From an uncultured Prevotella sp. (GTDB taxonomy: Bacteria > Bacteroidota > Bacteroidia > Bacteroidales > Bacteroidaceae), in contig CAMJBL010000001.1 in assembly GCA_946403845.1 (NCBI GenBank), forward strand, positions 108,605 through 172,604: 64,000 nucleotides of DNA. Direction: 5' to 3'. Positions 2,314-23,661 of the stretch are shown here, in pieces. Numbering within the stretch: position 1 is the first letter of the stretch; each line of letters starts with the position of its first letter. The translations under genes were made by a program, and so were the position numbers. Below the pieces are notes generated by a model. It saw nothing but the letters and a program-made list of their open reading frames with translations, made no database searches and was not told where the DNA came from.

Positions 2314-3528
2314 ATGCGTAAAAATCTTTTGATTAACGGAGAGGCTGTTGCGGCCTCTCAGGAGGGAGCCCTGGTGATAGAGCTCTTCCTAAACGACAAT
2401 TACCTTTTCCGTCGCAACGTACTAAATGGAAAGGTTGAATTTCTGACCTTGCCTGAAGGTGAGGGCGTCTCTTGGCGTCCGCTGACTCAGGAGGCACTGA
2501 ACAGCATCATCCTCAAGGCAGAGCGCGAACACATCATGGAGAAAGGCAGCCCGAGTGCCAAGATCAAGATGTATGTGCAGTCTGAGGAGGTGCCCGTTTT
2601 CAATCCCGTCACAGAGCTTTTTGATAGCCTGCCTCAATGGGATGGCAAGAACCACGTGGCCGCTGTTTTCAGTCGCATCCCAGGTCTCAGCACCGAGCAG
2701 CACAGCTTCCTGGCCATCTGGATTCGTTCGATGGTGGCCCATTGGCTGCAGATGGACACCCTTCATGGCAACGAATGCGTGCCAACGCTGATTGGTGAGC
2801 AGGGATGTGGTAAGACCACCTTCGTACGTCGTCTGCTGCCCCCTCAGCTGCGTGAGTATTATCTCGACCATCTGAACCTGTCGAACAAGTTCGATAAGGA
2901 GATGGCGCTGACAAACAACCTGCTGGTCAACCTCGACGAGCTCGAGGCTATCCGCCCCAGTCAGCATGCAGCCTTGAAGCAGACGCTCTCGAAGAGCAAA
3001 GTCAACGGACGTCCTATCTTCGGAAAGGTCCAGGCGGATCGTCCACGTTTCGCCTCGTTTGTGGCCACGACGAACAATCCGCATCCGCTGACGGATCCCA
3101 CTGGCTCGCGTCGCTACATCTGTCTGACGATTCCTGAAGGTCAGCTGATCGACAACGATGGCGACATCGACTACGGACAGCTCTATGCGCAGGTGCTCCA
3201 TGAGCTTCGAGTGGTGAAGGCTCCCTATTGGTTCAACAACCTCGAGGTGCAGCGCATTCAGCAGCTGAACCAGAACTACATGGAGGAGAAGGACATCGCC
3301 GAAATCCTGAACGCCTGCATCCGCAAACCTGAGGAGGGTGAGGTGGCACAGCCGATGGATTGCAAGCAACTGCTCGAACTGGTGCAGAAGGAGTATCCTC
3401 TGGTGGCGAACACGCGAAGCACGAAGATTCATATCGGACTGGCGATGAAGGAGTTCGGCTACGAGTCGACCAAGCGAGGCAACAGGCCCTATTACAAGGT
3501 GGTCCCAATCGCCAAGAATGCTGCGTGA
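2314..3528 (+). CDS. VirE/VapE-family P-loop ATPase (phage/mobile element D5-like)
   Basis: Walker A LIGEQGCGKTTF, Walker B LLVNLDELE, SFVATTNNPHPLTDPTGSRRYICL typical of the virulence-associated E family. Confidence 0.88.
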   Translation: MRKNLLINGEAVAASQEGALVIELFLNDNYLFRRNVLNGKVEFLTLPEGEGVSWRPLTQEALNSIILKAEREHIMEKGSPSAKIKMYVQSEEVPVFNPVTELFDSLPQWDGKNHVAAVFSRIPGLSTEQHSFLAIWIRSMVAHWLQMDTLHGNECVPTLIGEQGCGKTTFVRRLLPPQLREYYLDHLNLSNKFDKEMALTNNLLVNLDELEAIRPSQHAALKQTLSKSKVNGRPIFGKVQADRPRFASFVATTNNPHPLTDPTGSRRYICLTIPEGQLIDNDGDIDYGQLYAQVLHELRVVKAPYWFNNLEVQRIQQLNQNYMEEKDIAEILNACIRKPEEGEVAQPMDCKQLLELVQKEYPLVANTRSTKIHIGLAMKEFGYESTKRGNRPYYKVVPIAKNAA

Positions 3529-3639
3529 GGTATATGTTAAGGTATATGTTAGGTACATGATAGGTACATGTTTGCCTAACATATACCTGCCTCGAAACCC
3601 CGATGTACAAAGGCTTTCACGAGGGTTGAGGTATATGTT
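3527..3639. repeat. Right flank of VirE gene: AGGTATATGTT array plus 62-bp repeat inverted relative to 2031-2092
   Basis: aacatatacctgcctcgaaaccccgatgtacaaaggctttcacgagggttgaggtatatgtt (3578-3639); reverse complement closely matches the left flank. Confidence 0.9.
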
Positions 3640-3670
3640 TGAAGAAAAATCGATAAAACTATAAAAATTT

Positions 3671-4114
3671 ATGGAAATCAAGAAGAAATTCACATTGGAA
3701 GATATACCTGGCGGATACGCCATGTGTATGCGAAACGACTGCACAGTCTGCGAGCATTGTCTGCGACACATCGCTTATAATGATGTGGGGAAAGACCAGA
3801 AAAGGCTCATGATTATCAATCCCTTGCTGGTAGTGCCGAATGAGCAGTGCGAGCATTTCCGGACTGACGAGCTGGCCACCTATGCCAAAGGTTTTGTCCG
3901 TATGAAAGACGAGATGTTGCCCCGTCAGTATGATGAATTCATGGTTCGTTTGATAGGCAAGTTCGGTCGAACAGGTTATTATGAGCGTCGTCGAGGCGAG
4001 CGACTCTGCAAGCCTTCTGAAATCGAATTCATCCAAAAGGTGCTTCAGGAAATGAAGCTTCCCAATCTCGAATTCGATGGTTACGAGAAGCATTATAACT
4101 GGTACGGTGATTAG
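3671..4114 (+). CDS. Cys-rich hypothetical protein (DUF6078-like)
   Basis: 147-aa ORF with RNDCTVCEHCLRH; commonly seen near VirE genes in Prevotella/Bacteroides. Confidence 0.6.
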   Translation: MEIKKKFTLEDIPGGYAMCMRNDCTVCEHCLRHIAYNDVGKDQKRLMIINPLLVVPNEQCEHFRTDELATYAKGFVRMKDEMLPRQYDEFMVRLIGKFGRTGYYERRRGERLCKPSEIEFIQKVLQEMKLPNLEFDGYEKHYNWYGD

Positions 4115-4164
4115 TCTTTCAAAATCGATAAGCTCCACATCGCTCTCAGTACATAACTGGCGCA

Positions 4165-4214
4165 CTCCAGTACGTCCCCAGGCGCACTCGAGTGCGCCAG
4201 TATGCGTACTGGAG
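4165..4214. repeat. Nested palindrome / hairpin
   Basis: CTCCAGTACG (4165-4174)...CGTACTGGAG (4205-4214) enclosing perfect palindrome GGCGCACTCGAGTGCGCC (4181-4198). Confidence 0.9.
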
Positions 4215-4366
4215 CCTTCTAATGATCAATAAGTGCCTAGTATTGCTGAATAAGAGCCTTCCCCTTATCATTAAAAGCCTCTTTATCAATGGGAAACAAT
4301 ACTTTTTTGCTTTTTTATTTGGAAAATTCGATAATTCTTCTTATTTTTGCGGAAAATATTGAATAT

Positions 4367-4684
4367 ATGACCAAGAGTGCAGCATTATCAAGAATCCGTC
4401 AGACGGCCACATCTACAATTCCAGATGGTGGCAAGGCGATTCTTTATGGCTCCAGGGCCAGAGGTGATGCCCGCAAGGATTCTGACTGGGATATTTTGAT
4501 CTTATTAGATAAAGATATTCTTGATCAGTCGGATTACGATAATGTCAGTTATCCCTTTGTCTTGCTTGGTTGCGATTTGGGCGTAGAAATCAATCCTATT
4601 ATGTACACCACAAAGGAATGGGAGTCATATCGCATCACCCCATTTTATGAGAATGTTGTTCGTGATGGAATAGTTCTGGTTTAA
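4367..4684 (+). CDS. MNT-type nucleotidyltransferase domain protein
   Basis: AILYGSRARGDARKDSDWDILILLD motif. Confidence 0.88.
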   Translation: MTKSAALSRIRQTATSTIPDGGKAILYGSRARGDARKDSDWDILILLDKDILDQSDYDNVSYPFVLLGCDLGVEINPIMYTTKEWESYRITPFYENVVRDGIVLV

Positions 4685-4844
4685 CAAACGAGACTTCTCG
4701 CTCCGCTTAGGACAAGAGCCCCATTTGGATTGGCAAGCGACTTGTTAAAGCGGAGTTTTTTTGTGTATAGGAGTAACAAAAGAGACGATTGTGCCCCTTC
4801 ACAAGCCTTGTGAAACTACTTTTTTACATTTTCTTCACAAAATA

Positions 4845-5376: not shown

Positions 5377-6684
5377 ATGAGAAGAAATAAATATTGGCCA
5401 CTTATAATAGTACTGATCTTGGGCGCAATTATGGCTCCTATTATAATCCGTTGTGATGATGGTAAATATATAGTCTCCTATGATGCTATACCTCCTGTTA
5501 AACCATATAAACCATCCAAGGTTAAGCTATATATCGAGAATTCAGGTAGTATGGATGGGTATATGTTTGATGGATCAGAACTTAAAGATGCTGTCTATAG
5601 CTATGTTAGTGGTTTATCAACACATTCTGATACTACGGAATTATTTTTTGTTAATAGTAATGTTTATAGTGTCAAAGCTCCATTGCACGATTTTATATAT
5701 GCGATGTCACCAACTGCATTCCACAGTTCCCCTGGCAATAAGGCAAACACTGATATTGCAGATATTTTCAGCATGGTTCTTTCTCAAATAGAAGAGAATA
5801 GCGTTAATATACTTGTTACTGATGCAATATTAGATTTACCTTCAGGATCGACAGTCTTCTTTCGTACAAAGCAGACTCAAATCAAGTCTATATTTGAAAA
5901 CTATTTAAAGGTGAATCCCAATTTTGCTATAGAGATTTTCCGTATGTTATCACGGTTCAATGGCAAATATTATTATACTGGAGGCAATGTCACTTTATCG
6001 GATCAACAACGGCCATATTACATGTTTGTCATGGGTGACAAGCAAGCGTTGAGTTCAGCAAACGGCATTGTCGCAAAGAGCCTGATACAACATGGAGTTG
6101 AAGATTACTATGCATATTCTTCATATACTCAGGTTCCTTTTGTGGTAGAGAATAAGAAAAAAAAGGGAAATGGTGGGTATTTTGAAGTGCGGTTACAACA
6201 GAAGTCTGTTCCTGTCATAGCAAAGGTAGACCTTCAGTATACTCTTCATGAAGATGAGTTTCTAATTGAACCCAATTTGTATGCTATTGCGTTTGGAGAT
6301 GATAGCATTAAGATTAAAACCATTAAAGAGTTGCCAAAGGAGCCAGAATATACACATGCATTTACTTTGTCATTGCCAGAAAATGCAACAGAAGGAAGTG
6401 TAAACCTGTATTTCTGTCCTCCACCTTATCCGCTTTGGTTGGAAGACGCTAATGACGATTTATCCGATGCTTCAGTAGCAACGACCATGAAGACAACGGG
6501 TATTAAATACGTTGTCGAAGGTATATCTGATGCATTTGCGAGTACATGCGTAAATAATCCAGCACCATTTACAAATGGAGACAAGGTATATACTCCTAAG
6601 TCTAAAGCTGACAAGAAGCCTATTCCTGTGTTGGCGGGGTGGAAATTCCGTTTGGACAAGAAAGCTAATTATAAAAAACCTTAG
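5377..6684 (+). CDS. Membrane-anchored vWA-like protein (degenerate MIDAS)
   Basis: N-terminal TM segment; KLYIENSGSMDGYM resembles DxSxS; NILVTDAILD. Confidence 0.7.
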   Translation: MRRNKYWPLIIVLILGAIMAPIIIRCDDGKYIVSYDAIPPVKPYKPSKVKLYIENSGSMDGYMFDGSELKDAVYSYVSGLSTHSDTTELFFVNSNVYSVKAPLHDFIYAMSPTAFHSSPGNKANTDIADIFSMVLSQIEENSVNILVTDAILDLPSGSTVFFRTKQTQIKSIFENYLKVNPNFAIEIFRMLSRFNGKYYYTGGNVTLSDQQRPYYMFVMGDKQALSSANGIVAKSLIQHGVEDYYAYSSYTQVPFVVENKKKKGNGGYFEVRLQQKSVPVIAKVDLQYTLHEDEFLIEPNLYAIAFGDDSIKIKTIKELPKEPEYTHAFTLSLPENATEGSVNLYFCPPPYPLWLEDANDDLSDASVATTMKTTGIKYVVEGISDAFASTCVNNPAPFTNGDKVYTPKSKADKKPIPVLAGWKFRLDKKANYKKP

Positions 6685-6712: not shown

Positions 6713-7138
6713 ATGGATAAAATCTATACTTTACTCTCTGGCCTATATGGTGACGAACTCCATGATTTCCTTCTTGGAGTCAATGGTATGAATGGCACTA
6801 ACCTTTTTAATGTCATGTTTGTAGTACTACTTATTATTTCTATGTTGTTAACTCCTTTCTTTTATTATAAGCTTTGGGATAGGGCAACATGGGCGAGCAT
6901 CGGAAAATGGTTGGTTATGCTGTTAGTAAATGCCACCATTGTATTCTTGGTTAATGTAATTTGGTTGCATTTTCTTTCTGATAAGATGGTAGATGAAGAG
7001 GGTGAGGCTCTTTCTATAGGTCTTTCTAATATAATAGGATTTGGTTTTGCATCCGTTATTCTTGCTTCGTTATTATTTTCCGTTGCCTCGTTGGGTTGGA
7101 AAACGCAAAGTGTTAATTGTCCACACATTCCATTATAA
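6713..7138 (+). CDS. Small multi-pass membrane protein
   Basis: Hydrophobic helices NVMFVVLLIISMLLTPFF, WLVMLLVNATIVFLVNVIWL, ASVILASLLFSVASL. Confidence 0.8.
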   Translation: MDKIYTLLSGLYGDELHDFLLGVNGMNGTNLFNVMFVVLLIISMLLTPFFYYKLWDRATWASIGKWLVMLLVNATIVFLVNVIWLHFLSDKMVDEEGEALSIGLSNIIGFGFASVILASLLFSVASLGWKTQSVNCPHIPL

Positions 7139-7150
7139 ATCTCAGATGTT

Positions 7151-8578
7151 ATGTCAAAATTATATGTATTTGCAATAGGAGGAACAGGCTCAAGAGTCCT
7201 GCGCTCCCTCACAATGCTTGCAGCTGCAGGTGTAGATGTACATGCGAATGAGATAGTTCCAATTATCATTGATCCTGATGCTTCAAATGCAGATCTAACT
7301 CGTACAGTCACTTTAATGAATTGTTATTCTTCAATTCGTAAAGGTATTGAGTTTAGTGACACTAACGAAACTACTTTCCTTAGGCCTGAAATTAGTCAGT
7401 ATGTGCAAAACTATACTTTACACATTAAAGACACAGAGAATAGGCGCTTTGACCAGTTTATAGAATATGCTTCCCTTTCTTTGGAAAACAAGGCTATGAT
7501 GAGCATGTTGTTTTCGGAGAAAAACCTTAATGCACAGATGCAGGTAGGATTTAAAGGTAATCCAAATATTGGTAGCGTTGTATTGAATCAGATTGTTTCT
7601 TCACCTCAGTTTGATGAGTTTGCAACTTCATTTGCCGCAGGCGACAAAATATTTATAATAAGTTCAATTTTTGGTGGAACAGGTGCAAGTGGATTCCCAT
7701 TGTTATTAAAGACTCTTCGTGATAAAAATGCATCATTCCCCAACCATAGTATAATTAATAATGCTGAAATTGGTGCTATTACGATTCTTCCATATTTTAA
7801 ATTGCAACCATCTGAGCAAAGTGAAATAGATTCATCTACATTCATTTCAAAAGCTCGTTCAGCTTTGGCTTATTATGAAACAAATGTAGTTGGGAATAAT
7901 TCCATTAACGCGTTATATTACCTAGCCGATGATGGTAATATATACGAAAATAATGATGGAGGTAGTATGCAGCAGAATCCTGCTCATATTATTGAATTTG
8001 TAGCAGCAACAGCTGCAATTAATTTCATGAATAATAATTATTCAGGTAGATATATGAATCTTGAGTTTGGTATTCAAGATATTAATGATAATGATGGAGT
8101 CACTTTTGGTAAATTCTATTCAGAAACATCGGGTTTACTGATGAAACCTATGACTCAGTTGGCTTTGATGGCAAATTGCCTTCAGGAAGGAAGTCCTCAA
8201 TATAATTTGGTGACCTCTAAGTCTTTGGCTGCAAACTTAACTATATGTGCTAAAGAGAGTTTGTATACTACACCATATTTCAAGGAATTAAAGGCTTTCC
8301 TTGTAAAATACAAAGAGTGGCTTAAAGAGTTAGATGATAATAAACGGTCTTTAAATCTATTTAATTTGGAGTGTGCTGACAAACCTTTTGAATTGCTTAC
8401 TGATCGTAAATCACACCAAGGTGGATTCTTAAGCTTCGAAAAGAAAGATTATGAGGCTTTTTACGGTGCTCTTAATAAAGCTGCTCAAGAGGTACGAGGA
8501 GATAAAGCGTCTAGCTTATTTATAGAGATGTTCTCGCGAGCAACAAAGAAATTGGTAGAAGAAAAACTTAAAATGTAA
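7151..8578 (+). CDS. Tubulin/FtsZ-superfamily-like GTPase
   Basis: N-terminal YVFAIGGTGSRVLRSL, then IISSIFGGTGASGFPLLLK resembling the tubulin GGGTGSG signature loop. Confidence 0.75.
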   Translation: MSKLYVFAIGGTGSRVLRSLTMLAAAGVDVHANEIVPIIIDPDASNADLTRTVTLMNCYSSIRKGIEFSDTNETTFLRPEISQYVQNYTLHIKDTENRRFDQFIEYASLSLENKAMMSMLFSEKNLNAQMQVGFKGNPNIGSVVLNQIVSSPQFDEFATSFAAGDKIFIISSIFGGTGASGFPLLLKTLRDKNASFPNHSIINNAEIGAITILPYFKLQPSEQSEIDSSTFISKARSALAYYETNVVGNNSINALYYLADDGNIYENNDGGSMQQNPAHIIEFVAATAAINFMNNNYSGRYMNLEFGIQDINDNDGVTFGKFYSETSGLLMKPMTQLALMANCLQEGSPQYNLVTSKSLAANLTICAKESLYTTPYFKELKAFLVKYKEWLKELDDNKRSLNLFNLECADKPFELLTDRKSHQGGFLSFEKKDYEAFYGALNKAAQEVRGDKASSLFIEMFSRATKKLVEEKLKM

Positions 8579-8583
8579 ATGTT

Positions 8584-11500
8584 ATGTCAAAGATATTTAG
8601 ATTAGGTGAAGGCCCCCGCACTTATACTGATTGGTCCGAATCGCCTTCTTTCCCATATGACAGTAATGCTAGAAAGAAGATACAAGATCCTGATGGCGCA
8701 ACTGCTGAGAAGGAAATTACGTCAATTCCCTCTCCATTCGCTCGTATTGATTTGATAAAGAATGCTTTTCGCGAGGTTTGTGATAATCAAGACCTTGATG
8801 GTCATACAATCTTCCATAAGATGGTGTCTGATGCGCTAGATATTGGTGAGATATTCTTTAATATCGATCGTTTCAATGATAAAGTTGAGATCATTACCTG
8901 GAATCCTGCAAGTTGTATTAAGGAGATGAAAAACTCTGATCTTGATGGTCATCATTATTTAGGTGATGTCCTTGATAAGTATCTTGATTCTGATGCTAAG
9001 GCGTATAACTTTGACTCCATGCAGAATATATATATTCTCAATTATAAGAATGGTATAAAAGAACTGAATATTATAGGCGCTACATCCCCAGCCACGTTAT
9101 TCTTCTCAAATGCCAACGATTTAAGCTACCTTTCGGATGAACTGTCGTTTGAGTTAGATAAACCATTTGATAATAAATATAATCCCCTTTATAAGCGAGA
9201 TTCTCAGTACGTAAAAGCACTATTCCTTTACAGAAAAGTTTATCCAGGCTTTGCTACTGCTTTTCGTGAATTGAATGATTATTTCGACTTGACATTCCAA
9301 AAGCTATCTCCCGAGCTTCGTAATGAAATTCGTGATTTGAGCGCAAATGATGTGGGGAGTTATGGAACGATTTCTGTTACTCGAGGTAATCTAAACGACA
9401 TTGTTGAAGTGCTAGGACAGAATCTATTCAAATTAAAAGGTACGACCTCAATTGAGAATTCGGACTTCCTGATAGATTCAGCTAAGTGTGATGACCAGAT
9501 ATTGGTATTACCTATTGATAAGGGTAATACGTATAGCGACTTGATTTATGTGACAGAGAGATGGGGTGAAGAGAACTTTGCGCAAGCATATGATAGGAGG
9601 GAAATATCTGAAAGAACCCTTCCTTCTCGTGGTGATAAAAAGCCATATCTTACTATAAGCGATTTCTTGGAGCCGGAAATTATACGAGTGCCATACTTGT
9701 TGAATGAAGATGATTTCTATACGGCTCATAATCGTAAGAATGGTGAGGAAGCAACTTTCTTACTACCACTCAAGCCGCTATTCTTTAAGTATTTTAGCGT
9801 AAATGATATCACCGAAAAAAATCTGATAACAGTTACAACGTTGTCAAGATCTTCTGCTGAGGTGACATTGCGCATACCTATTCGTAGCAAGCAACAACCC
9901 AAGCAAATAGTGTATTCACGTACATATTATGATTCAAATGCTGACCCAGACGAAAAAAACAACAAGGGAGCTGTTGTCGAGATGAAAATCTCTGGATTTG
10001 TTATGCCAAATGTACGTTTTATGCGTCCAGAAGAAGCAATCTATAAAGTTGGTTTGGTAATGATGAACGCCAATCGATATATGCTTGATTTCTATAAAGA
10101 CGATCAGATTATCAGTGCAATTACACCTTCTGTAAGACAAGGTGCGAACGAACTTGCTAAGAATGCTGTATATACAATAGAAAAAAGCAACTTTGATTAC
10201 ATACGAGTGTCATCAAATACAACAGCACATAGTGTAATTATACCAAGATTTAAGTCTCAGACAATTAACAATGAGTTTAAGTTTGCTGTAGATCTTGGTA
10301 CATCAAATACTCATATCGAGGTTTCTATGAATGGACGCGAATCAGAAGCTTATGGTTATCAGAAGTCTCCTGTAAGCATGTTCTTCTTGCAAACGTTTGA
10401 TGATCATGGGGCCCCTAAGAATCTCCAGATTGAGAATAATATTATGGAAAAGGACATGTTGCCAACTGTAGTTGGTAAAAATTCTGATTTCCGTTTCCCA
10501 ACTCGGACAATATTGTCTTGTGCAAAGAGTATTGACTGGTCTGCAAATTTGAATTGCTTTGAAATGCATAATTTACCATTGACATATGGTAAACGTGTAG
10601 AATTATCATATAATGATTATCATTATGATATCAAGTGGGGAACTGATGAAAAAGATAAAGAAATTCTACGTTGCTATGTCGAAGACCTATTGTTCATGCT
10701 TCGTACTAAGGTTGTTGCTGAAGGTGGAGACCTCACAAAGACCAAGTTGACTTGGTTCTTCCCAATTAGTATGCCGATAGGAAGAAAGGAAAAGCTATCT
10801 AAGATATGGAATGAGTTGTATTATAAGTACTTCCCAGGTGCAGTTAATGGCATTGAAGCGATGTCTGAATCATATGCTCCTGTTCTTCATTATCGTAATG
10901 AGAATACAACGGTTTCAAATCTTATCAATATTGATATTGGTGGTGGTACCACTGATGTTGCATACTTTGTAGATAAAGAGTTGTCTTTTGTCACATCATT
11001 TAGGTTTGCTGCTAATGACATCTTCCAGGATGCTTATGCGAAGGATACAGTTCACAATGGAATTGTTGATGCATATAAGGATAAAATTAAGGCTGTATTG
11101 GAATCGAATTCTGCAGATGCAGCAGTGCGTGACGTATTATCAATCTTTGATTCAGACAACAATCGCCATCCTGCAAATATGGCGTCATTCTTATTCTCAT
11201 TGCGAGACAATCAGAATTTGAAGAATGTGAATAAAAATAAGATTGATTTTAATGAACTCCTTCAAGATGACGAGCAGTTCAAGATTGTCTTTATATTATT
11301 CTATACTGCTATTATTTACCATATTGCTCAAATTGTTAAGCTACAGCAATTACCATTACCTCGTCATATATCATTAAGCGGTAATGGCAGTAAAGTAATT
11401 AAAATTATCTCTACAGATAGTTCGATCCTTTCTTCATATACGAAGAAAATCTTCGAAATAGTTACTGGACAGAGTTATGATGGTAATCCTCTTGGTATCA

Positions 11501-11925
11501 TTGGTCTTGATAAAGAAGGCTCAAAAGAGTCTACATGCAAAGGTGGAATTTTAGGAACAGAGCCAACAGGAAATAAGGAAAAACAAGTAGTCCTGAAGTC
11601 TAATGGTGATGAACTGATGGCTGATGTTGTATTTGGCGCTGTTGATGATGCCTATAAGAGAATGGTAGAGCAAAGTGCAGGTAAATTCTTTGAATTCTTC
11701 TTCTCGCTGTGTTCGAAGTATAATATGAAGGACAACTTCGGAATTACAAATAATAGCATTAGTACTGCTAAAAAGTATTGTGATCAAGACCTTGCTACGT
11801 TTATAAACCGTGGTTTGGAACAGCAGCGTAAAGACTACGAGGATTCTGATCCTCTACGCGAGACGTTGTTCTTCTATCCATTGAAGGGCTTCTTGAGTAA
11901 CCTTATTAACAATTTAAATGAGTAA
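8584..11925 (+). CDS. 1113-aa protein with C-terminal Hsp70/actin-like ATPase domain
   Basis: FAVDLGTSNTHIEVSMNG (phosphate-1), NIDIGGGTTDVAYF (phosphate-2), HISLSGNGSKVIKII (adenosine-like). Confidence 0.8.
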   Translation: MSKIFRLGEGPRTYTDWSESPSFPYDSNARKKIQDPDGATAEKEITSIPSPFARIDLIKNAFREVCDNQDLDGHTIFHKMVSDALDIGEIFFNIDRFNDKVEIITWNPASCIKEMKNSDLDGHHYLGDVLDKYLDSDAKAYNFDSMQNIYILNYKNGIKELNIIGATSPATLFFSNANDLSYLSDELSFELDKPFDNKYNPLYKRDSQYVKALFLYRKVYPGFATAFRELNDYFDLTFQKLSPELRNEIRDLSANDVGSYGTISVTRGNLNDIVEVLGQNLFKLKGTTSIENSDFLIDSAKCDDQILVLPIDKGNTYSDLIYVTERWGEENFAQAYDRREISERTLPSRGDKKPYLTISDFLEPEIIRVPYLLNEDDFYTAHNRKNGEEATFLLPLKPLFFKYFSVNDITEKNLITVTTLSRSSAEVTLRIPIRSKQQPKQIVYSRTYYDSNADPDEKNNKGAVVEMKISGFVMPNVRFMRPEEAIYKVGLVMMNANRYMLDFYKDDQIISAITPSVRQGANELAKNAVYTIEKSNFDYIRVSSNTTAHSVIIPRFKSQTINNEFKFAVDLGTSNTHIEVSMNGRESEAYGYQKSPVSMFFLQTFDDHGAPKNLQIENNIMEKDMLPTVVGKNSDFRFPTRTILSCAKSIDWSANLNCFEMHNLPLTYGKRVELSYNDYHYDIKWGTDEKDKEILRCYVEDLLFMLRTKVVAEGGDLTKTKLTWFFPISMPIGRKEKLSKIWNELYYKYFPGAVNGIEAMSESYAPVLHYRNENTTVSNLINIDIGGGTTDVAYFVDKELSFVTSFRFAANDIFQDAYAKDTVHNGIVDAYKDKIKAVLESNSADAAVRDVLSIFDSDNNRHPANMASFLFSLRDNQNLKNVNKNKIDFNELLQDDEQFKIVFILFYTAIIYHIAQIVKLQQLPLPRHISLSGNGSKVIKIISTDSSILSSYTKKIFEIVTGQSYDGNPLGIIGLDKEGSKESTCKGGILGTEPTGNKEKQVVLKSNGDELMADVVFGAVDDAYKRMVEQSAGKFFEFFFSLCSKYNMKDNFGITNNSISTAKKYCDQDLATFINRGLEQQRKDYEDSDPLRETLFFYPLKGFLSNLINNLNE

Positions 11926-11927
11926 TT

Positions 11928-12659
11928 ATGAAATTGATTCAAGAACATAGCTTACTGATAATTGCAATATTATTAGTATTGCTTATAATATCTGTTCTCT
12001 TTTATTTTTTAAGGGAACGTAATTCTCGTGATGATTCTAGTGGTATCTCGCGTCGAGGATCAGTTTCAAAAGAAAAATTTAATCTCGTTTTTAATCAGAG
12101 AAATGAGGAATCTCAAGAAAAAGTGAAATTTGAGAATCTTTATAATGATTATAGAGAAAAATATGAGAAGGCATGTGTTGAAATCGGTAAACTCAAAAGC
12201 AGAATAGATGAACTAACTCGAGATTATAACGAGTTGAGTGAGTTATATAACAAAGATACTGCTCCTTATGATGTCGATGAGAAATCAGAAGGAGCAAATC
12301 CTATAGTTGACCATTCTTTAGAGAGTGAAACGACTCAAGGAGCGATAGTGGGGCAAAAAATAAAGTACGCATCTTTCCCTCGCTCTGCTGGTAACACCAT
12401 ATATTTCTCTGATCTGACAGATAAACTTGTAGATGATTCTTATTTTGAAATAAGACTCTCTGGTGATACAGACAAAGCTTCTTTCAGACCATTGGATTTT
12501 ATGAAAATTCGCAACTATGATCCTGCTATGGCAGCAATACTTACGGATGGCGTGAAACCTAATGTCGCATCTACTGTACTTGGTGTAGAACCAGGAGATG
12601 TGTGTTTAGAAGGCAATGATTGGATTATTAAAAAATTGGCAAAAGTAAAATTGGCATAA
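11928..12659 (+). CDS. N-terminally anchored coiled-coil protein
   Basis: HSLLIIAILLVLLIISVLFYFL TM helix followed by a heptad-rich region. Confidence 0.75.
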   Translation: MKLIQEHSLLIIAILLVLLIISVLFYFLRERNSRDDSSGISRRGSVSKEKFNLVFNQRNEESQEKVKFENLYNDYREKYEKACVEIGKLKSRIDELTRDYNELSELYNKDTAPYDVDEKSEGANPIVDHSLESETTQGAIVGQKIKYASFPRSAGNTIYFSDLTDKLVDDSYFEIRLSGDTDKASFRPLDFMKIRNYDPAMAAILTDGVKPNVASTVLGVEPGDVCLEGNDWIIKKLAKVKLA

Positions 12660-12660
12660 A

Positions 12661-14274
12661 ATGGATTTGACATTTCCCATGATTCTAACCATTACTGTTG
12701 TATTAGTAGTGGTTTGTTTTCAGTTATATAAATTCTTTGAAAATCGCAAAAGAATTAATTTGTTCAGTAGCATTTTTGCTGGACAAGATTATGATTTGGT
12801 AAGAAATGAAAGTGAGCTGGTAGTAGGTATCACAGGTTCTGGTAATGAAATCTTTGATGATATAAAAAGTTCAATAAATGGCTATCTTAAAGGTACAAAA
12901 GGTACTGAGGTTGATTTTCAACTACTAAAAGATTCCGTTGATCGTCATTGTGATATGATTGAGGATGAGATCAATTCGCAGATGCCTTTGCCTTTGTACT
13001 TTGGACTCGCAGGTACTATGGGTGGTGCAATTATTGGGCTTATGGCTTTAGTGTGGGGTGATGCAATCCTTCAGTTGATGGCCGGTGATTTAGGTTCAGC
13101 TGGGAATAATGCAGCGAACAATATCAACGATCTGCTATGGGGCGTTGCCATTGCCATGCTAGCTAGTGCTATTGGCATTATATTGACATCATTAAACACA
13201 GTTTATTTTAAAAACAAAAAACTGCAAGAAGAAACAGAAAAGAACATATTTCTTGCATGGATGCAGTCGCGTGTTTTGGCTGCTGTTCCTTCTACTGTTT
13301 CTCAGCAAATGAAGGCCTTGGTAAACCAATTGGTCACTTTTAATAGGACCTTCAAATCAAATACTGATGCAATCACTACAACTCTAGACAAAGCAAAAGA
13401 AGTCTACAAATCGCAAGCTGATGTTATCGAAGAATACAAAGCTATTGACTTGGAGGCTATTGCAACTGGAGTAAGTAGTATTATGCGTCGATTAAGAAGT
13501 AGCACTGAAAGCTTAGACAACTTTACTCAATATCTGGATAAGGTCCATGATTATTATGAGAAAATGCAAGTCTTTGCAGAAAACCTGAATAAGGAGTCAG
13601 AGAGAATTGGCATACTTCAGGATATTCAGAGGTTCTTCCAATCTCACAAGGGCGTTATTGCAGAGGAAACAGCTGATGCTCATAAAAACATCCAGGAGTC
13701 AATAAAAGCGGTGCAGGAATCTACTGAACAGCAAGTTAATGAGACTTATGCTGCCCTTACTGAACAATCGCAGAAACTAAAGAATGCTGTTGACGAAAAT
13801 AACAAACAGTTTGAAGAACTCTGTCAGGATATGCGTAATAAGTTCAAGGAACAAATGGACGAAATGCCTGAAGTTGCACAAAGCTTGAAGAAACTTGAAG
13901 ACATACCTAATCAATTAGAGGCTGTAGTTTCAAAGATTACCCAATCACAAGAACGTCTTGCATTGGATTTCCTTGCAGCAGCAAAACAGATTGTAGATAC
14001 TGTTGGCAAGGAAAAGAAAGATCCATTTATTATTAAAGATGGTTTTAATTCTAACCAAGTACCAGTTAAAGAGATCATTCCTTCAAGCCTCAAATGGATA
14101 ATTGTTGGTGGTATAATCGTAATGTCTATAGCTACAGTAGGGAATACGGCTTATAATATATGGAAGGGTGAAATAGCCCCAGTCCAGATTGTACAGGAAG
14201 AGGAACTTGTAGATAGCGTTGCAGCTACGATTCCTATACAGGTTGTTGACAGTACCCTTGTTCAGAACCCATAA
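12661..14274 (+). CDS. MotA/TolQ/ExbB-superfamily protein with long cytoplasmic coiled-coil (ZorA-like)
   Basis: LPLYFGLAGTMGGAIIGLMALVWG and NNINDLLWGVAIAMLASAIGIILTSLNTVYF, then ~270 residues of coiled-coil and a C-terminal TM. Confidence 0.75.
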   Translation: MDLTFPMILTITVVLVVVCFQLYKFFENRKRINLFSSIFAGQDYDLVRNESELVVGITGSGNEIFDDIKSSINGYLKGTKGTEVDFQLLKDSVDRHCDMIEDEINSQMPLPLYFGLAGTMGGAIIGLMALVWGDAILQLMAGDLGSAGNNAANNINDLLWGVAIAMLASAIGIILTSLNTVYFKNKKLQEETEKNIFLAWMQSRVLAAVPSTVSQQMKALVNQLVTFNRTFKSNTDAITTTLDKAKEVYKSQADVIEEYKAIDLEAIATGVSSIMRRLRSSTESLDNFTQYLDKVHDYYEKMQVFAENLNKESERIGILQDIQRFFQSHKGVIAEETADAHKNIQESIKAVQESTEQQVNETYAALTEQSQKLKNAVDENNKQFEELCQDMRNKFKEQMDEMPEVAQSLKKLEDIPNQLEAVVSKITQSQERLALDFLAAAKQIVDTVGKEKKDPFIIKDGFNSNQVPVKEIIPSSLKWIIVGGIIVMSIATVGNTAYNIWKGEIAPVQIVQEEELVDSVAATIPIQVVDSTLVQNP

Positions 14275-14289
14275 ATGATTTTTTGAAGT

Positions 14290-14910
14290 ATGAAGAAATC
14301 AAAAGAGTCTTTCTTTTGGACAAGTTATTCCGATTTGATGACAAGCCTATTCATTATCATGTTGGTCCTTTTTGTCTTGGTAATAGTGCTGCTTAACAAA
14401 CGAATGGAGGCTACTATCATAGAGCTTGAGGATATAAAGAAGGTGGAAGCATCAACTCGTGACCTCGAAGGTAAATTCTTTACTTACAATAAGGAATATG
14501 AAAAGTTTATTCTTAATATAGACTGTCAATTTCCCGTAAGCAAGTATGATATAGGACTTTTAAGTGATACTACAAGGTCTCAGTTGATGGACGCAGGTCA
14601 ACAAGTAAAGGATTTCTTAGAGAAACATTCAGAGAATCAATATCTGGTTATTGTTGAGGGGCAGGCTTCTGCTAATTCCGAAGCGATGATGGAGTTTAAT
14701 TACAATCTTTCATATCAACGAGCTTTGAGCCTTATTAAGTTTTGGGCAACAAATCCAAATGTTAAATTTTCAGAAAAGAATTGCGAACTCCAAATTGCCG
14801 GTAGCGGAGATGGTAGACTCAGCGCGAAAACTATGCGTGATTCTGTAAATGAAAAGAATCAGAGGTTTCTAATTTATATTATACCTAAGAATATCATCAA
14901 AAAACAATAG
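14290..14910 (+). CDS. MotB/OmpA-family protein (ZorB-like)
   Basis: FWTSYSDLMTSLFIIMLVLFVLVIVLL with the MotB-type Asp at the TM start; C-terminal IVEGQASAN...NLSYQRALSLIKFW...NQRFLIYIIPK OmpA-like. Confidence 0.82.
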   Translation: MKKSKESFFWTSYSDLMTSLFIIMLVLFVLVIVLLNKRMEATIIELEDIKKVEASTRDLEGKFFTYNKEYEKFILNIDCQFPVSKYDIGLLSDTTRSQLMDAGQQVKDFLEKHSENQYLVIVEGQASANSEAMMEFNYNLSYQRALSLIKFWATNPNVKFSEKNCELQIAGSGDGRLSAKTMRDSVNEKNQRFLIYIIPKNIIKKQ

Positions 14911-15870
14911 ATGCGAAGGAAAAAAGTCATAATCGTATTGTTACTTATAATCTCGCATGTCTCATCATTGGCTCACGCCTCTTGGGAACAGCATGCAGAT
15001 GATATGTATGAGGTATTAGGATTGGAGAGAAACGAAAAGCTTACAGATTGGATGAGATTTGTAAGCTCTGTTCTGATTGATAATTACAATGCCGAATATG
15101 CTTTTTCTGATAACGGGGAACCATTCGATTTCTATTTATATCTAAAAGAAAAATACCCAGAGTTTCAGTGTAAACACAGATTACTATTTCACTGGGGCTA
15201 TAATTCGAGGCCTTGGTCTACTTATCTTCAGAATAAAGTTCTCGGATATGGATGGTCTGATACAATGATTAGAGACTTTCAGGCTGACCTAATTGCAGAA
15301 CAAAAACGTAGAAATAGTTTCGCGAATAATTATACGGAGAATCTTTTTGGTTTTGCGCATGGAGGAAAAGAGGCGCGCGTGGCAAGGGTTATTATTTCTG
15401 TTGTATATGATGTCCATTTATTAGGAGATTATGAGCCTGATAATATTGATCTGGAAGGATTGCAGGATATTGGGTCTGTGGTCGGAGATATAATCAACAA
15501 TATAAATGCATTGGATAAAAGAACTGGGGCACAGCTGACCAAACTGTTACAAAAAATTTCTCAAAATTCCAATTGTGACGTACAAGACAAAGCTGCCGCG
15601 TTGTTGAGGTTGTTGAAAGAGCATTTTGGAGTTTTTCTAAGAACTGCAGATAACGGAACAATTGAAGAACATTTAAACGCACAGGGATTTTTTTTTGTAG
15701 ATTATAGTGCAAAACAGCCTAGTTATGAAAAAAAAACAACTCAGAAGGATTTTACTGATAAGAAAACTCGAAATAAAACTTTTAAAAAGGGGGGAGGCAT
15801 TGGCGTAGTTATAATTATTTCATTAATAATACTAGTTGTGTTATTAGTTATTCTATTTAAGAAAAAATAA
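14911..15870 (+). CDS. Exported/anchored protein of unknown function
   Basis: Signal peptide VIIVLLLIISHVSSLAHA and C-terminal TM GVVIIISLIILVVLLVILFKKK. Confidence 0.75.
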   Translation: MRRKKVIIVLLLIISHVSSLAHASWEQHADDMYEVLGLERNEKLTDWMRFVSSVLIDNYNAEYAFSDNGEPFDFYLYLKEKYPEFQCKHRLLFHWGYNSRPWSTYLQNKVLGYGWSDTMIRDFQADLIAEQKRRNSFANNYTENLFGFAHGGKEARVARVIISVVYDVHLLGDYEPDNIDLEGLQDIGSVVGDIINNINALDKRTGAQLTKLLQKISQNSNCDVQDKAAALLRLLKEHFGVFLRTADNGTIEEHLNAQGFFFVDYSAKQPSYEKKTTQKDFTDKKTRNKTFKKGGGIGVVIIISLIILVVLLVILFKKK

Positions 15871-15886
15871 GATTACTCGAAGATGT

Positions 15887-16792
15887 ATGATGAGTTTGAG
15901 TGATATATATATATGTGTATTAAATAAACTTGATGGTTTTAATGAAAAAAACATTCTTAAAGCCATAGACTTAGCTAATAATGATGTCGTTGAAACGCTT
16001 GATGATTTCATTGACTTTATTAATTTCAATATTGAAGATTGTAGATTTGAGGATATCACTCAACCTATTAATAAGGAAACTATAAAGAAAGTTGTTGAGA
16101 AAGTTTTGAAAAACAAAGATAATATAGTACATTATGTAAATCCATCAGATGGTAGTTTCCCCAAATGTTTGCCTATTGAAGAAATAGAGGCGCCTTCTCT
16201 TTTGAAATATAAGGGGAATTTGGAGAACCTTAAACGCAAAACAATACTAATAACAGGATCCCCCACTGTATCAGACAATGCTAGGTTAGCTTCTGAATAT
16301 ATTGGGAAGGTTTTGGCTTCAGGCGGCTATAACATATTGTCTACTTTTTCAAATGAATGTGAAGAAAAAGCAATAAAGGGATGTAAAGAAGTCAAGGGGG
16401 TAAGTACATTCTTTTTGCCTCATAGTTTAGAACGGCTGACATCTGAAGAAATAGAAGTTATTCATAGCGAAATCGATTCTGAACGCTCAATGATTATTTC
16501 TGTTGATGATTATGCTCTGGCAAATGCTGAATCAATTGAAAAAGCTTGTAAATATTCAATGGCACTTGCTGATTGTATGATTATTCCCCAAATTAGTAAT
16601 ACTGATTATATCTTTGACCATGTTAAGAAGTTTTTGAAATCAGACAAACCAGTTTATCTTGTAAGATACAAAACAAGAACTATTAAAGAGTACAATTGTA
16701 TAAAAGCTCTTGAATCATTAGGGGTGATGTATTTGTCTAGTAATACTGTGTTAAAGCAGATAAAAGATACGGTTGGAGAGGTGTTGATATGA
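15887..16792 (+). CDS. DprA/SMF-like Rossmann-fold protein
   Basis: PSLLKYKGNLENLKRKTILITGSPTVSDNARLASEYIGKVLASGGYNILSTFSNECEEKAIKG resembles DprA; next start overlaps by 4 bp. Confidence 0.7.
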   Translation: MMSLSDIYICVLNKLDGFNEKNILKAIDLANNDVVETLDDFIDFINFNIEDCRFEDITQPINKETIKKVVEKVLKNKDNIVHYVNPSDGSFPKCLPIEEIEAPSLLKYKGNLENLKRKTILITGSPTVSDNARLASEYIGKVLASGGYNILSTFSNECEEKAIKGCKEVKGVSTFFLPHSLERLTSEEIEVIHSEIDSERSMIISVDDYALANAESIEKACKYSMALADCMIIPQISNTDYIFDHVKKFLKSDKPVYLVRYKTRTIKEYNCIKALESLGVMYLSSNTVLKQIKDTVGEVLI

Positions 16793-18192
16793 AGAAAGTA
16801 TATTTAATTATAGCAGCCATTATGCTGCTTTGTTTGGCACCAATGCCATACGGGTATTTCCAGTTGGTGAGATTCTTGTCGACACTGGTGTTTGGTGTGA
16901 TGGCATTCCGATATTACCAGGAGCGAAAGGAGTGGCTGGCTTATATATGTGGTACATTGGCTCTGCTGTTTCAGCCGTTCTACAAGATTGCATTGGGCAG
17001 AACGGTATGGAACATCGTGGATGTTATTGTTGCTATAGGATTAATCGCACTTTTCATCTATGAATGGAAGGAGGGGGATGGTAAAACGGAATTTAAGGGT
17101 AATACACCACCCATAAACATAATAGGCGAACCAGTAGAGTCAAACAACTTTGAGTTTAAACTCGAGGGAAAACTTGGTCCCAAGGAACTTATTTATGTTG
17201 CATCTGAAGAGGATAAGGATCTGGAGGATCTGTTTGAGAATAAACCTGAGGTCTTCGAAGGCTGGGGTCAGATGATGGGGTTCCATATTATCTATCTGCC
17301 ATTACTTATCAAGAAACTGCAGGAGAAACGAGTTCTCCAATATCGTGCGCCTTATCTGAATGATACCGAGGTTAAAAGCGCTATTGTTGGCAATGATTTC
17401 TTGCTGAGGTTCCTGGATAATCCTGCTGATAGAGGTAAGATGAAGCATGGATTTATCCGAACAGAGAATATTCATCGTGGCGATGACGGGAAAGATAAAG
17501 CCATAAACCGTTTCTATCCCTTGTCATCGAAGAGTGGGGAGCCTATAGCTGATCAGTTGCATAGAATAAGCAAGCAGATTGCTGCTGAGGATAGTCAAAA
17601 GAAACTGCCAGGCGCATCGTATGATGAGTGGGGTGATGGCGATCAGTCTGATAGTCCGGCAGACTCTCAGTTCAATTCGCAACAAGGCGGTGAGAATATT
17701 GAAGATCTGATGGAGGAAGTCAGAGAGAGGATTGCCAAGTTACGTCAACGTGGTATCGCAGAATACTTGCTGGAGCAGCTGATACATCCAGATAATAGAT
17801 TGAGTCGAATGGTTATCACCAAGGATTACCGTATCGTATTGCCTGACTATAACGATATGGAAATCAAGATGGAGCCTTTGGTTAAGGCTGTGTATCTGCT
17901 TTTCCTGAAGCATCCTGAAGGTATCATGTTTAAATGCTTGCCTGACTATCGAGAGGAATTGGCTCGTATATATGCAGAGTTGAGACCACAAGGTTTGACG
18001 GACAGAGCGCTGCAAAGCATAGAGGATGTTACAAATCCTCTGCTGAACTCTATCAACGAGAAATGTGCTCGAATAAGAGGAGCATTTGTAGGACAATTTG
18101 ATGATTATATGGCGAAGAGTTACTATATTGATGGGCTACGTGGGGAGGCAAAGAAAATCTCGCTTCCTCGTAATCTGGTAGTCTGGGAATAA
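16789..18192 (+). CDS. Membrane protein with C-terminal domain shared with the 23077-23661 product
   Basis: Four N-terminal hydrophobic helices; C-terminal RMVITKDYRIVLPDYND...KAVYLLFLKHPEGIMFKCLPDYREEL...SINEKCARIR. Confidence 0.8.
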   Translation: MKKVYLIIAAIMLLCLAPMPYGYFQLVRFLSTLVFGVMAFRYYQERKEWLAYICGTLALLFQPFYKIALGRTVWNIVDVIVAIGLIALFIYEWKEGDGKTEFKGNTPPINIIGEPVESNNFEFKLEGKLGPKELIYVASEEDKDLEDLFENKPEVFEGWGQMMGFHIIYLPLLIKKLQEKRVLQYRAPYLNDTEVKSAIVGNDFLLRFLDNPADRGKMKHGFIRTENIHRGDDGKDKAINRFYPLSSKSGEPIADQLHRISKQIAAEDSQKKLPGASYDEWGDGDQSDSPADSQFNSQQGGENIEDLMEEVRERIAKLRQRGIAEYLLEQLIHPDNRLSRMVITKDYRIVLPDYNDMEIKMEPLVKAVYLLFLKHPEGIMFKCLPDYREELARIYAELRPQGLTDRALQSIEDVTNPLLNSINEKCARIRGAFVGQFDDYMAKSYYIDGLRGEAKKISLPRNLVVWE

Positions 18193-20105: not shown

Positions 20106-21617
20106 ATGCCAGGACAAAGGAATAATAATAGGCGCGCGCAACAACCATTGGATCTTTCCTATGGTCATGTGATGCCTCAGGCTCCGGAAATAGAGAAAGC
20201 TGTGCTGGGAGCGATGATGATAGACAAGGATGCCTATCTGGAGGTGTGCAATTTGTTGAGGCCAGAGAGCTTCTACGAGCCAAGAAACCAAATGGTGTAT
20301 GATGCTATTCTGCAGCTGAGCAGGGATGAGAGCCCTGTGGATGTGCTGACTGTGACAAATATGTTGGGGAAAATGGGTAAACTCGATGAGGTAGGAGGAC
20401 CTGGTTACATTGCAGAACTGAGTTCGAGGGTAGCCACTTCCGCCAATATCGAATATCATGCCAACGTAGTGGCGGAGAAATTCTTGTCACGTCAGATGAT
20501 TGAATATGTCAATGTCATTGGAAAGAAGGCATTCGATGAGACCTACGACATTAGGGACGTGATGCAGGAGGCTGAGGAAACTCTCTTGGAACTGTCGATG
20601 AAAAACATGAAGAAAGACTATTCTGCATTGGGGCCAGTTGTTGACAGAGCGGTCAAGGCTGTAGAGGAAGCTTATGCCAACAACGGAAGTTTTACAGGTA
20701 TTCCATCTGGCTTATACAAACTCGATGATATCACATGCGGATGGCAAAAGTCGGACCTTGTGATTATCGCGGGCCGTCCTGCGATGGGCAAAACGGCCTT
20801 TGCACTCTCTGTGGCGAAGAATATCGCTGTGGATCAGAAGAGACCTATAGCGTTTTTCTCACTGGAAATGTCGGATGTACAGTTGGCAAATCGATTGATG
20901 TCGAATGCTTGCGAGATAGATGGAAAGAAACTGCTCAGCGGACAGTTGGATAGAGAGGATTGGAAAAGGCTTGATAGAACTCTAAGTGTACTGACTGATG
21001 CACCGTTGTTTGTGGATGATACGGAAGGCCTCTCAGTGATGGAACTGAGGACAAAGGCTCGCAGGCTTCAAAGGGAACATCATATTGAACTGATCATGAT
21101 TGATTACCTGCAACTGATGACAGCAAGCGGTATGAGATATAATAGTCGTCAGGAGGAGGTGTCGCTGATTTCGCGTTCGTTGAAGGGCTTGGCGAAGGAA
21201 TTAAATATACCAGTATTGGCTTTGAGCCAATTGAATCGTGGCGTGGAATCGCGGGAAGGTGCAGAAGGGAAACGGCCTCAATTGTCTGACCTCAGGGAGT
21301 CGGGAGCCATCGAGCAGGATGCGGATATGGTGATTTTCCTACATCGTCCGGAGTATTACCATATCCTTATGAGTGAAGATGGATTCACAGACTATCGGGG
21401 TAAGGCAGAGGTGATTGTATCCAAACATCGTAAGGGCGCAACAGGTATCGTCACGATGGACTTTATGGGAGAATATACACGTTTCGCAAATCCGGAGGAT
21501 AGAAAACTTGGAAATAGCTCGCCACGAGATGGCGGAGAGGTTAGGGACTCTGCTGTGAATGGAGAGAATAATGACTTGCCTTTTCCTCCTGCGGATAATA
21601 ATCCTCCTGAAGTATGA
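20106..21617 (+). CDS. dnaB: Replicative DNA helicase DnaB
   Basis: VMPQAPEIEKAVLGAMMIDKDAY, IIAGRPAMGKTAFALS, IMIDYLQLM, SQLNRGVESR, DLRESGAIEQDADMVIFLHRPEYY. Confidence 0.95.
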   Translation: MPGQRNNNRRAQQPLDLSYGHVMPQAPEIEKAVLGAMMIDKDAYLEVCNLLRPESFYEPRNQMVYDAILQLSRDESPVDVLTVTNMLGKMGKLDEVGGPGYIAELSSRVATSANIEYHANVVAEKFLSRQMIEYVNVIGKKAFDETYDIRDVMQEAEETLLELSMKNMKKDYSALGPVVDRAVKAVEEAYANNGSFTGIPSGLYKLDDITCGWQKSDLVIIAGRPAMGKTAFALSVAKNIAVDQKRPIAFFSLEMSDVQLANRLMSNACEIDGKKLLSGQLDREDWKRLDRTLSVLTDAPLFVDDTEGLSVMELRTKARRLQREHHIELIMIDYLQLMTASGMRYNSRQEEVSLISRSLKGLAKELNIPVLALSQLNRGVESREGAEGKRPQLSDLRESGAIEQDADMVIFLHRPEYYHILMSEDGFTDYRGKAEVIVSKHRKGATGIVTMDFMGEYTRFANPEDRKLGNSSPRDGGEVRDSAVNGENNDLPFPPADNNPPEV

Positions 21618-23076: not shown

Positions 23077-23661
23077 GTGATAGAACAAGAAGGACAAATG
23101 ACCCCTGAGGAAGCGGCTCTGGAGGTGAGAAAACTGGCGGAGCAACTGATGGCAGCAGACAGGAAGGACCTGCTGTTGAAGGCTATAGGCGTGCCTACGC
23201 TAGAGGCGTTACGCATCGAAGCTGCGAAGGGAGAGTTGTCGCGACTAGTGATAACGGCTGACTACCGTTTTATGCTAGTGGACTATCATGTGGAAGTGGA
23301 ACTGCAGCCTGTACACAAGGCGGTGTATCTATTGTTTTTGGCGCATCCCGAGGGTCTCGAGTTCAAGCGGTTGACTGACTACAGAGAGGAACTGAAGGGC
23401 TACTATATGCAGACGGCGAAGCTGTTGGATAAGGAGAAGATCGAAGAGGGCGTGAAACATCTGGTGGATCCGCTCGATAATGCTATCAACGAGAAGTGCT
23501 CGCGTATCAAGAAGGTGTTTCTTGAACTGATGGACGAATATCGGGCGAGCTACTACTTTATCAGTAGCCATACGCAAAAGCATGTCGCTGGACGGGTCTG
23601 GTATGAAAGACTGAAAATCATTACGCTTCCAAGAGAACTGGTAATAAGGGAATATTTATAG
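23077..23661 (+). CDS. Soluble protein homologous to the C-terminal domain of the 16789-18192 product
   Basis: GTG start; RLVITADYRFMLVDYHVEVELQPVHKAVYLLFLAHPEGLEFKRLTDYREEL...AINEKCSRIKKVF...ITLPRELVIREYL. Confidence 0.8.
   Translation: MIEQEGQMTPEEAALEVRKLAEQLMAADRKDLLLKAIGVPTLEALRIEAAKGELSRLVITADYRFMLVDYHVEVELQPVHKAVYLLFLAHPEGLEFKRLTDYREELKGYYMQTAKLLDKEKIEEGVKHLVDPLDNAINEKCSRIKKVFLELMDEYRASYYFISSHTQKHVAGRVWYERLKIITLPRELVIREYL

Follow-up and report, generated by a model that had tools for sequence, protein, structure and literature searches.

A ZorAB-type motor pair encoded with tubulin- and actin-like proteins in Bacteroidota may belong to a new type of envelope or immune machine

Results

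Gene content of the operon

The window, by which we mean the whole 64,000-nucleotide stretch of uncultured Prevotella sp. DNA analysed here, contains an operon in which the genes for a motor A subunit (P0001, 537 amino acids) and a motor B subunit (P0002, 206 amino acids) are separated by 15 bp and follow genes for a predicted lipoprotein, a small membrane protein, a tubulin-like protein, an actin-like protein and a linker (Table 1). The two motor reading frames had originally been placed at 12661-14274 and 14290-14910, and both sets of coordinates hold.

Table 1. Features of the operon and the genes that follow it
Feature	Coordinates	Strand	Basis
MIDAS-motif ('vWA-like') predicted lipoprotein	5377..6684	+	Family in 90/99 loci
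Small membrane protein, usually 3 TM	6713..7138	+	Family in 86 loci; 3 TM in 69/86
Tubulin/FtsZ-like GTPase, FtsZl1/Tubulin_2 kind	7151..8578	+	Signature, Pfam, tblastn
1113-aa protein with C-terminal actin/Hsp70-fold ATPase	8584..11925	+	AlphaFold, Foldseek, motifs
TM + coiled-coil linker protein	11928..12659	+	Held-out HMM of the same-slot family in relatives, E 6.4e-21
ZorA-like motor A subunit (P0001)	12661..14274	+	Fold, profiles, tree; coiled-coil tail and C-terminal TM segment
ZorB-like motor B subunit (P0002)	14290..14910	+	TM Asp15, OmpA-like domain; alignments and profiles
Signal-peptide + C-terminal TM protein in hydrolase slot	14911..15870	+	Hydropathy; no recognised domain
DprA/ShosA-like SLOG protein, possible accessory	15887..16792	+	Pfam DNA_processg_A 2.9e-8; PADLOC ShosA 4.2e-9
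DUF6804 membrane protein, recurrent downstream accessory	16789..18192	+	Pfam 7.2e-27

Two of the upstream genes encode cytoskeleton-related NTPases. The signature of the tubulin-like protein, SIFGGTG, is invariant in the alignment of its family, and Pfam matches among 14 members are weak but consistent (Tubulin in 13/14, Tubulin_2 in 11/14, best E 3.2e-9); the window's member by itself falls below the Pfam cut-offs, and tblastn with the tubulin-like protein finds an annotated cyanobacterial 'tubulin-like doman' protein at 5e-15. The AlphaFold model of the actin-like protein reaches a pLDDT of 88.8, Foldseek matches its C-terminal half to MreB (5.6e-9) and DnaK (1.6e-8), and the DxGT and DIGGG motifs are invariant in its family. 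The N-terminal half of this protein (residues about 50-555) is beta-rich and confidently modelled; the PDB matches listed for the model are all of the actin/Hsp70 fold. The predicted lipoprotein carries the motif E-N-S-G-S, a DxSxS motif with D replaced by E, and ExSxS is found in most members of its family, in which Glu54 is invariant and Cys26, Ser56 and Ser58 are each conserved at 90% or above. Neither Pfam nor PDB profiles confirmed a vWA fold, and we use 'vWA-like' for a putative identity suggested by the MIDAS-like motif.

The motor subunits

Hydropathy and the structural model bear out the TolQ/MotA-like TM segments and long coiled-coil tail originally predicted for P0001. An N-terminal TM segment is followed by a cytoplasmic stretch, two core TM segments and a coiled coil, with hydrophobic segments at 2-20, 114-132 and 158-176 and a helical/coiled-coil stretch of about 250 residues at roughly 200-450. 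The AlphaFold monomer has a pLDDT of 60.7 overall, with values of 65-90 across most of the first 210 residues and weak ones beyond, and its fold matches are the A subunits of 5:2 motors, namely TolQ, ExbB and ZorA, at a best E of 1.4e-3 with none below 1e-3. Because unrelated coiled coils swamped the whole-A-subunit profile in the PDB comparison, we used only matches to the TM core. In the model, TM1 is followed by a strand pair (43-49 and 52-58); additional beta structure is listed as a Zorya-type trait in an mBio survey. Two polar TM residues are well kept within the family, T119 in 56/58 relatives and S169 in 55/58. Hydropathy further reveals a C-terminal hydrophobic segment at 472-490, absent from the layout first proposed and present in about two thirds of A-subunit relatives (52/78). 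If this segment spans the membrane, as its hydropathy suggests, the tails of the A subunits that carry it must fold back to the membrane, unlike the free rod of Zorya.

P0002 carries the motif FFWTSYSDLMTSLF, and its Asp lies, as predicted, at the position typical of MotB-type TM helices: this residue, D15, is invariant in 56/56 relatives. The predicted C-terminal OmpA-like domain is sub-threshold in Pfam, where MotB_plug and OmpA give matches below the cut-offs only, and is clear by profile against solved ZorB structures: a 14-sequence B-subunit profile matches 8vvn_B at 2.4e-15 and 8qyd at 8e-8, with MotB at 3e-4 and other OmpA proteins at 0.035 at best. The peptidoglycan-binding residues of ZorB include H186, T187 and R203 (PMC11890865). 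Arg144 of the P0002 family, at the R203 position, is kept in 56/56 relatives, while the His/Thr are replaced by Gln/Ala and similar residues, with EGQAS where ZorB has the peptidoglycan-binding GHTD. P0002 scores 48.7 bits with the PADLOC ZorB1 model; we do not count this as evidence, as ordinary OmpA proteins reach 57-71 bits with that model and apparent true ZorB1 proteins 128-205 bits.

Kinship of the motor pair

We built profiles from 56-58 sequences of this family and from nine Zorya I pairs from Bacteroidota. The best outside matches of the family profiles are ZorA and ZorB, above ExbB/TolQ/MotA and MotB/ExbD/TolR respectively, and scores agree in both directions with one reciprocal exception: under the Zorya profiles, resident ExbB scores like many family A subunits and MotB like many family B subunits. 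We also computed a maximum-likelihood tree for 35 A subunits drawn from this family, Zorya I and Mot/Tol/Exb. Its branches are long; the family forms a clade (95/94) beside Zorya I ZorA (97/94), and the two are split from Mot/Tol/Exb (97/99). This phylogeny, proposed with the original prediction, puts the pair outside housekeeping ExbBD/TolQR and MotAB. That the pair is itself such a housekeeping or flagellar motor, to which the whole-fold similarity of P0001 to TolQ and ExbB might point, is extremely improbable given the tree split, the failure of ExbD and TolR to score appreciably against the family B profile (2.0 and -1.0 bits) and the presence of separate ExbB genes in this genome.

A second alternative is that the operon is a true Zorya system whose divergent effectors play the usual roles. 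ZorAB are indeed the closest motor relatives, but the pair occupies a separate clade, falls far under the curated NCBIfam cut-offs (ZorA 23.9 bits against 190, ZorB1 26 bits against 400), and is accompanied by no homologue of ZorC/ZorD, ZorE or ZorF/ZorG among the operon genes or among 79 downstream proteins of relatives. We already disfavour this alternative and consider it very improbable. On profile scores and phylogeny, then, the pair is of ZorAB type and forms a distinct sister clade; because the curated Zorya models are far from satisfied, we do not count it as Zorya proper.

A conserved gene order linking motor and cytoskeletal NTPases

The same gene order recurs across Bacteroidota: MIDAS-motif lipoprotein, 3-TM protein, tubulin-like protein, 1100-aa actin/Hsp70-fold ATPase, coiled coil, ZorA, ZorB. 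We count six genes as conserved in fixed order around the ZorA-ZorB pair. Loci came from a scan with a tubulin alignment, which matched at least 564 relatives and of which the 80 best were used, and from searches of genomes; a single-protein scan of genome contigs with the actin-like protein gave no matches. Among the 78 loci with at least 5 kb after the actin gene, ZorA is present in 70 and both ZorA and ZorB in 64, in a sample that contains a few near-duplicates and is biased towards Bacteroidota. The alignments, and the finding of one gene order at dozens of loci, show that this conservation is not due to chance. Pairwise distances are also correlated between the tubulin-like and actin-like proteins (0.915), actin-like protein and ZorA (0.885), tubulin-like protein and ZorA (0.868) and tubulin-like protein and ZorB (0.72, against 0.19 for the best of 1000 permutations), values to which shared descent contributes.

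The two halves of the operon also occur apart. Some loci in cyanobacteria and some in Bacteroidota have the tubulin-actin genes without ZorAB, among them L172 (4881-14788, Gloeothece verrucosa plasmid Cy782204), which encodes tubulin-like and actin-like proteins and a small TM protein; this absence of ZorAB from a cyanobacterial locus suggests that tubulin-actin is the older core. L172 also has a divergent lipoprotein gene. Loci L034, L039 and L038 have tubulin, actin and linker without ZorAB, and other proteins, one with a WG repeat, occupy the slot after the linker; these are possibly an alternative output module.

ZorAB-like pairs, in turn, are found without tubulin-actin. One such pair lies beside a DarT DNA ADP-ribosyltransferase and an ADP-ribosylglycohydrolase (L019, 6317-11422), and another beside a DarT DNA ADP-ribosyltransferase and a NADAR/DUF6939 protein (L170, 5523-9645, Parabacteroides distasonis plasmid NZ_OY725823.1); each pairing is a possible defence module. 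At L020 (7646-14636), which has no tubulin or actin gene, the partners of the ZorAB-like pair are a PP2C phosphatase, a vWA protein and a Ser/Thr kinase.

These separate occurrences are what would be expected if the ZorAB and tubulin/actin genes were only co-transcribed and their products acted independently. We think this improbable, however, in view of the fixed phylum-wide order, the high co-evolution and the joint retention of both parts across a genus (below). The original suggestion that the motor is coupled to the cytoskeletal ATPases is thereby sustained at the level of genome organisation.

Exchangeable hydrolases downstream of zorB

The pair had been described as lacking an effector, which is correct for those of Zorya type, including SNF2 and HNH genes, of which there are none among the ten operon genes scanned, and not supported more generally: in relatives, the gene directly after zorB usually encodes a signal-peptide or lipoprotein hydrolase, a protease or nuclease, and often overlaps zorB by 4 bp. 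The 79 downstream proteins scanned include trypsin-like proteins (21), retropepsin-like aspartyl proteases (13), SNase (8), Endonuclease_NS (7) and EEP (3) proteins. A lipoprotein N-terminus (CAHKSGHxR-like) is common to the trypsin-like and aspartyl types, whose catalytic motifs, SNYHV and FDTGAS, are visible. Mapped onto the tubulin tree, hydrolase types assigned by motif require 11 changes, where shuffled labels require 12.0 on average and as few in 67/200 shuffles; close sisters, L102 and L113 for example, can themselves differ in type. This swapping was not seen in the six genes upstream of the operon.

In the window, the hydrolase slot holds a protein that nothing in Pfam, NCBIfam or the PDB sequences matches convincingly and that has no relative among the other loci. 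We considered an S1/P1-type nuclease here, as HLLGDYEPDN resembles a metal-binding motif, and rejected it, since none of these three sources supported it. The DprA/ShosA/PsyrA-like SLOG protein that follows is apparently co-transcribed with the operon. DUF6804 recurs after ZorB at other loci (6/79 downstream proteins scanned), and the C-terminal region of the window's DUF6804 protein is common to a second downstream protein at 23077-23661.

Distribution and mobility

The operon differs in composition from the DNA around it (GC 36.6% against 51%), and its GC lies more than 5 points below the flanks in 23/53 other loci. In several Bacteroidales loci (L048 at 3486-4688, L051, L054 and L059) a tyrosine recombinase lies directly upstream of the operon, marking either a mobile element or a phase-variation switch. 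Searches with the tubulin-like protein found it in a few plasmid records only, and in none from phages. The draft genome of the window also carries two replicative DnaB genes that are 67% identical (window 20106-21617 and G000:C65:9657-11138); in relatives with better assemblies, any second copy is more distant.

A different pattern is seen in the genus of genome G461, which is almost certainly Hymenobacter, since its loci and those of named Hymenobacter form a close cluster. Here the tubulin gene is present in 51/51 species and ZorA in 50/51, and the two lie on one contig and one strand, 6.2-8.2 kb apart, in 47/47 testable genomes. Operon GC matches flank GC in loci of the named Hymenobacteraceae Hymenobacter, Rufibacter and Pontibacter, and the Hymenobacter copies have no downstream hydrolase. 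The tubulin gene is found in 83/101 genomes of the family of G461 and in 9/348 across the phylum; ZorA is found in 10/295 genomes of the order and is missing from three relatives in the family of the window genome.

Universality and matching GC in Hymenobacter argue against a purely accessory defence role. They are what a resident envelope machine with no part in defence would predict: powered by proton or sodium flow, the motor would exert force on a membrane-remodelling apparatus of tubulin and actin, with surface remodelling, secretion or vesiculation as examples of its use. The hydrolases would be cargo or housekeeping lipoproteins. The presence of the operon throughout one genus without a hydrolase favours this explanation, as do its prevalence in the family, the invariable tubulin-ZorA linkage and the earlier prediction that FtsZl1 operons act in membrane remodelling. 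Its patchy occurrence elsewhere in the order and phylum, foreign GC, hydrolase swapping and sister clades with DarT toxins tell against it, and we regard it as a serious contender that is nonetheless doubtful.

Discussion

We tentatively favour a reading, to which we give slightly less than an even chance, in which the operon encodes a Zorya-like trans-envelope sensor-motor that acts through its tubulin/actin NTPases, has exchangeable periplasmic effectors and serves as a conflict or surveillance system. Sequence comparison establishes the parts, their conservation and their linkage, from which we infer an order of steps. ZorB would report on the periplasm or cell wall, and ion flow would then rotate the ZorA pentamer and its tail. 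At the cytoplasmic face, the tail would alter how the tubulin/actin pair assembles, or its nucleotide state; the pair would stand in for ZorC/D/E, and as the output the periplasmic hydrolase would be deployed. Copies that are mobile and bear a hydrolase, the window's among them, would form a Zorya-like conflict or surveillance system; the hydrolase-less Hymenobacter copies would be a resident version of the same machine.

We favour a conflict system because of the kinship of the motor, the swapped hydrolases, the foreign GC and the sister ZorAB copies beside DarT modules. Several observations count against it: the window's copy has no recognised hydrolase, the His/Thr of the ZorB GHTD motif are not kept, and the vWA fold is unconfirmed; tubulin-actin loci occur without ZorAB; and in Hymenobacter the operon is universal and GC-matched, unlike a typical defence system. 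We consider rather unlikely, though worth stating, a wholly new machine in which an H+/Na+ rotary motor would act directly on the tubulin-actin pair, which might form a ring or filament on the inner membrane, for envelope sensing or remodelling and release of exchangeable periplasmic proteases or nucleases, a Zorya-like immunity relayed by cytoskeletal NTPases.

Overall, the gene set may encode a bacterial machine of a new kind, with a role in the envelope or in immunity. Among described ion-driven 5:2 motors, we know of none that acts on a tubulin- or actin-like protein. A functional linkage would bring together rotary stator motors and prokaryotic cytoskeletons, fields so far studied apart, and would provide the FtsZl1 operons described in 2010 with a source of power and an output that can be tested. 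ZorAB-like motors also emerge as modules that can be reused, with tubulin/actin at some loci and DarT toxins or kinase/phosphatase sets at others. A genus in which the machine is universal opens its normal role to genetic testing.

Comparison with known systems

The pair shares the A-subunit fold and ion-path logic with ExbBD/TolQR, GldLM and MotAB, but it forms a clade separate from ExbB, TolQ and MotA, the A subunits of these motors sampled in the tree, and its operon has no TonB, TolA or Gld partners. The vWA/MoxR ternary conflict systems (VMAP; PMC10907252) likewise combine NTPases, trypsin-like peptidase effectors and exchangeable effector domains, and they have a vWA-type protein to which our lipoprotein is a putative counterpart; no MoxR or VMAP homologue was seen here, and the operon instead has lipoprotein hydrolases and a membrane motor. 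With Zorya, in which ZorAB act with ZorCD, ZorE or ZorFG (PMC11890865), it has in common a 5:2-type motor, the TM Asp, the OmpA-like domain and a long A tail. It differs in having tubulin-like and actin-like proteins and no ZorC-G, signal-peptide hydrolases where Zorya has cytoplasmic nucleases, EGQAS for GHTD, and A tails that often end in a TM segment.

Our literature search, which covered main texts and little of the subscription literature, found no description of a ZorAB/actin/hydrolase version. The nearest relatives by gene content are the FtsZl1/vWA operons of Makarova and Koonin (2010), for which the main text describes the FtsZl1 tubulin, a vWA partner and OmpA-like proteins, proposes membrane remodelling, and includes Bacteroides caccae in the alignment (PMC2875224). 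An FtsZl1 (Tubulin_2-type) protein is present in our loci as well, and close to it is encoded a conserved lipoprotein with a MIDAS-like ExSxS motif, whose vWA fold is unconfirmed; the P-loop GTPase and Ser/Thr kinase partners, frequent but not universal in the 2010 operons, are absent among the operon genes scanned here. MotB, HSP70 and DnaK do not occur in the 2010 main text, which in the passages seen uses 'actin' for other systems and leaves a ZorAB motor, an 1100-aa actin-fold partner and swapping hydrolases undescribed (PMC2875224). The operon extends the FtsZl1 operons of 2010 with these components: a motor, an actin-fold partner and hydrolases.
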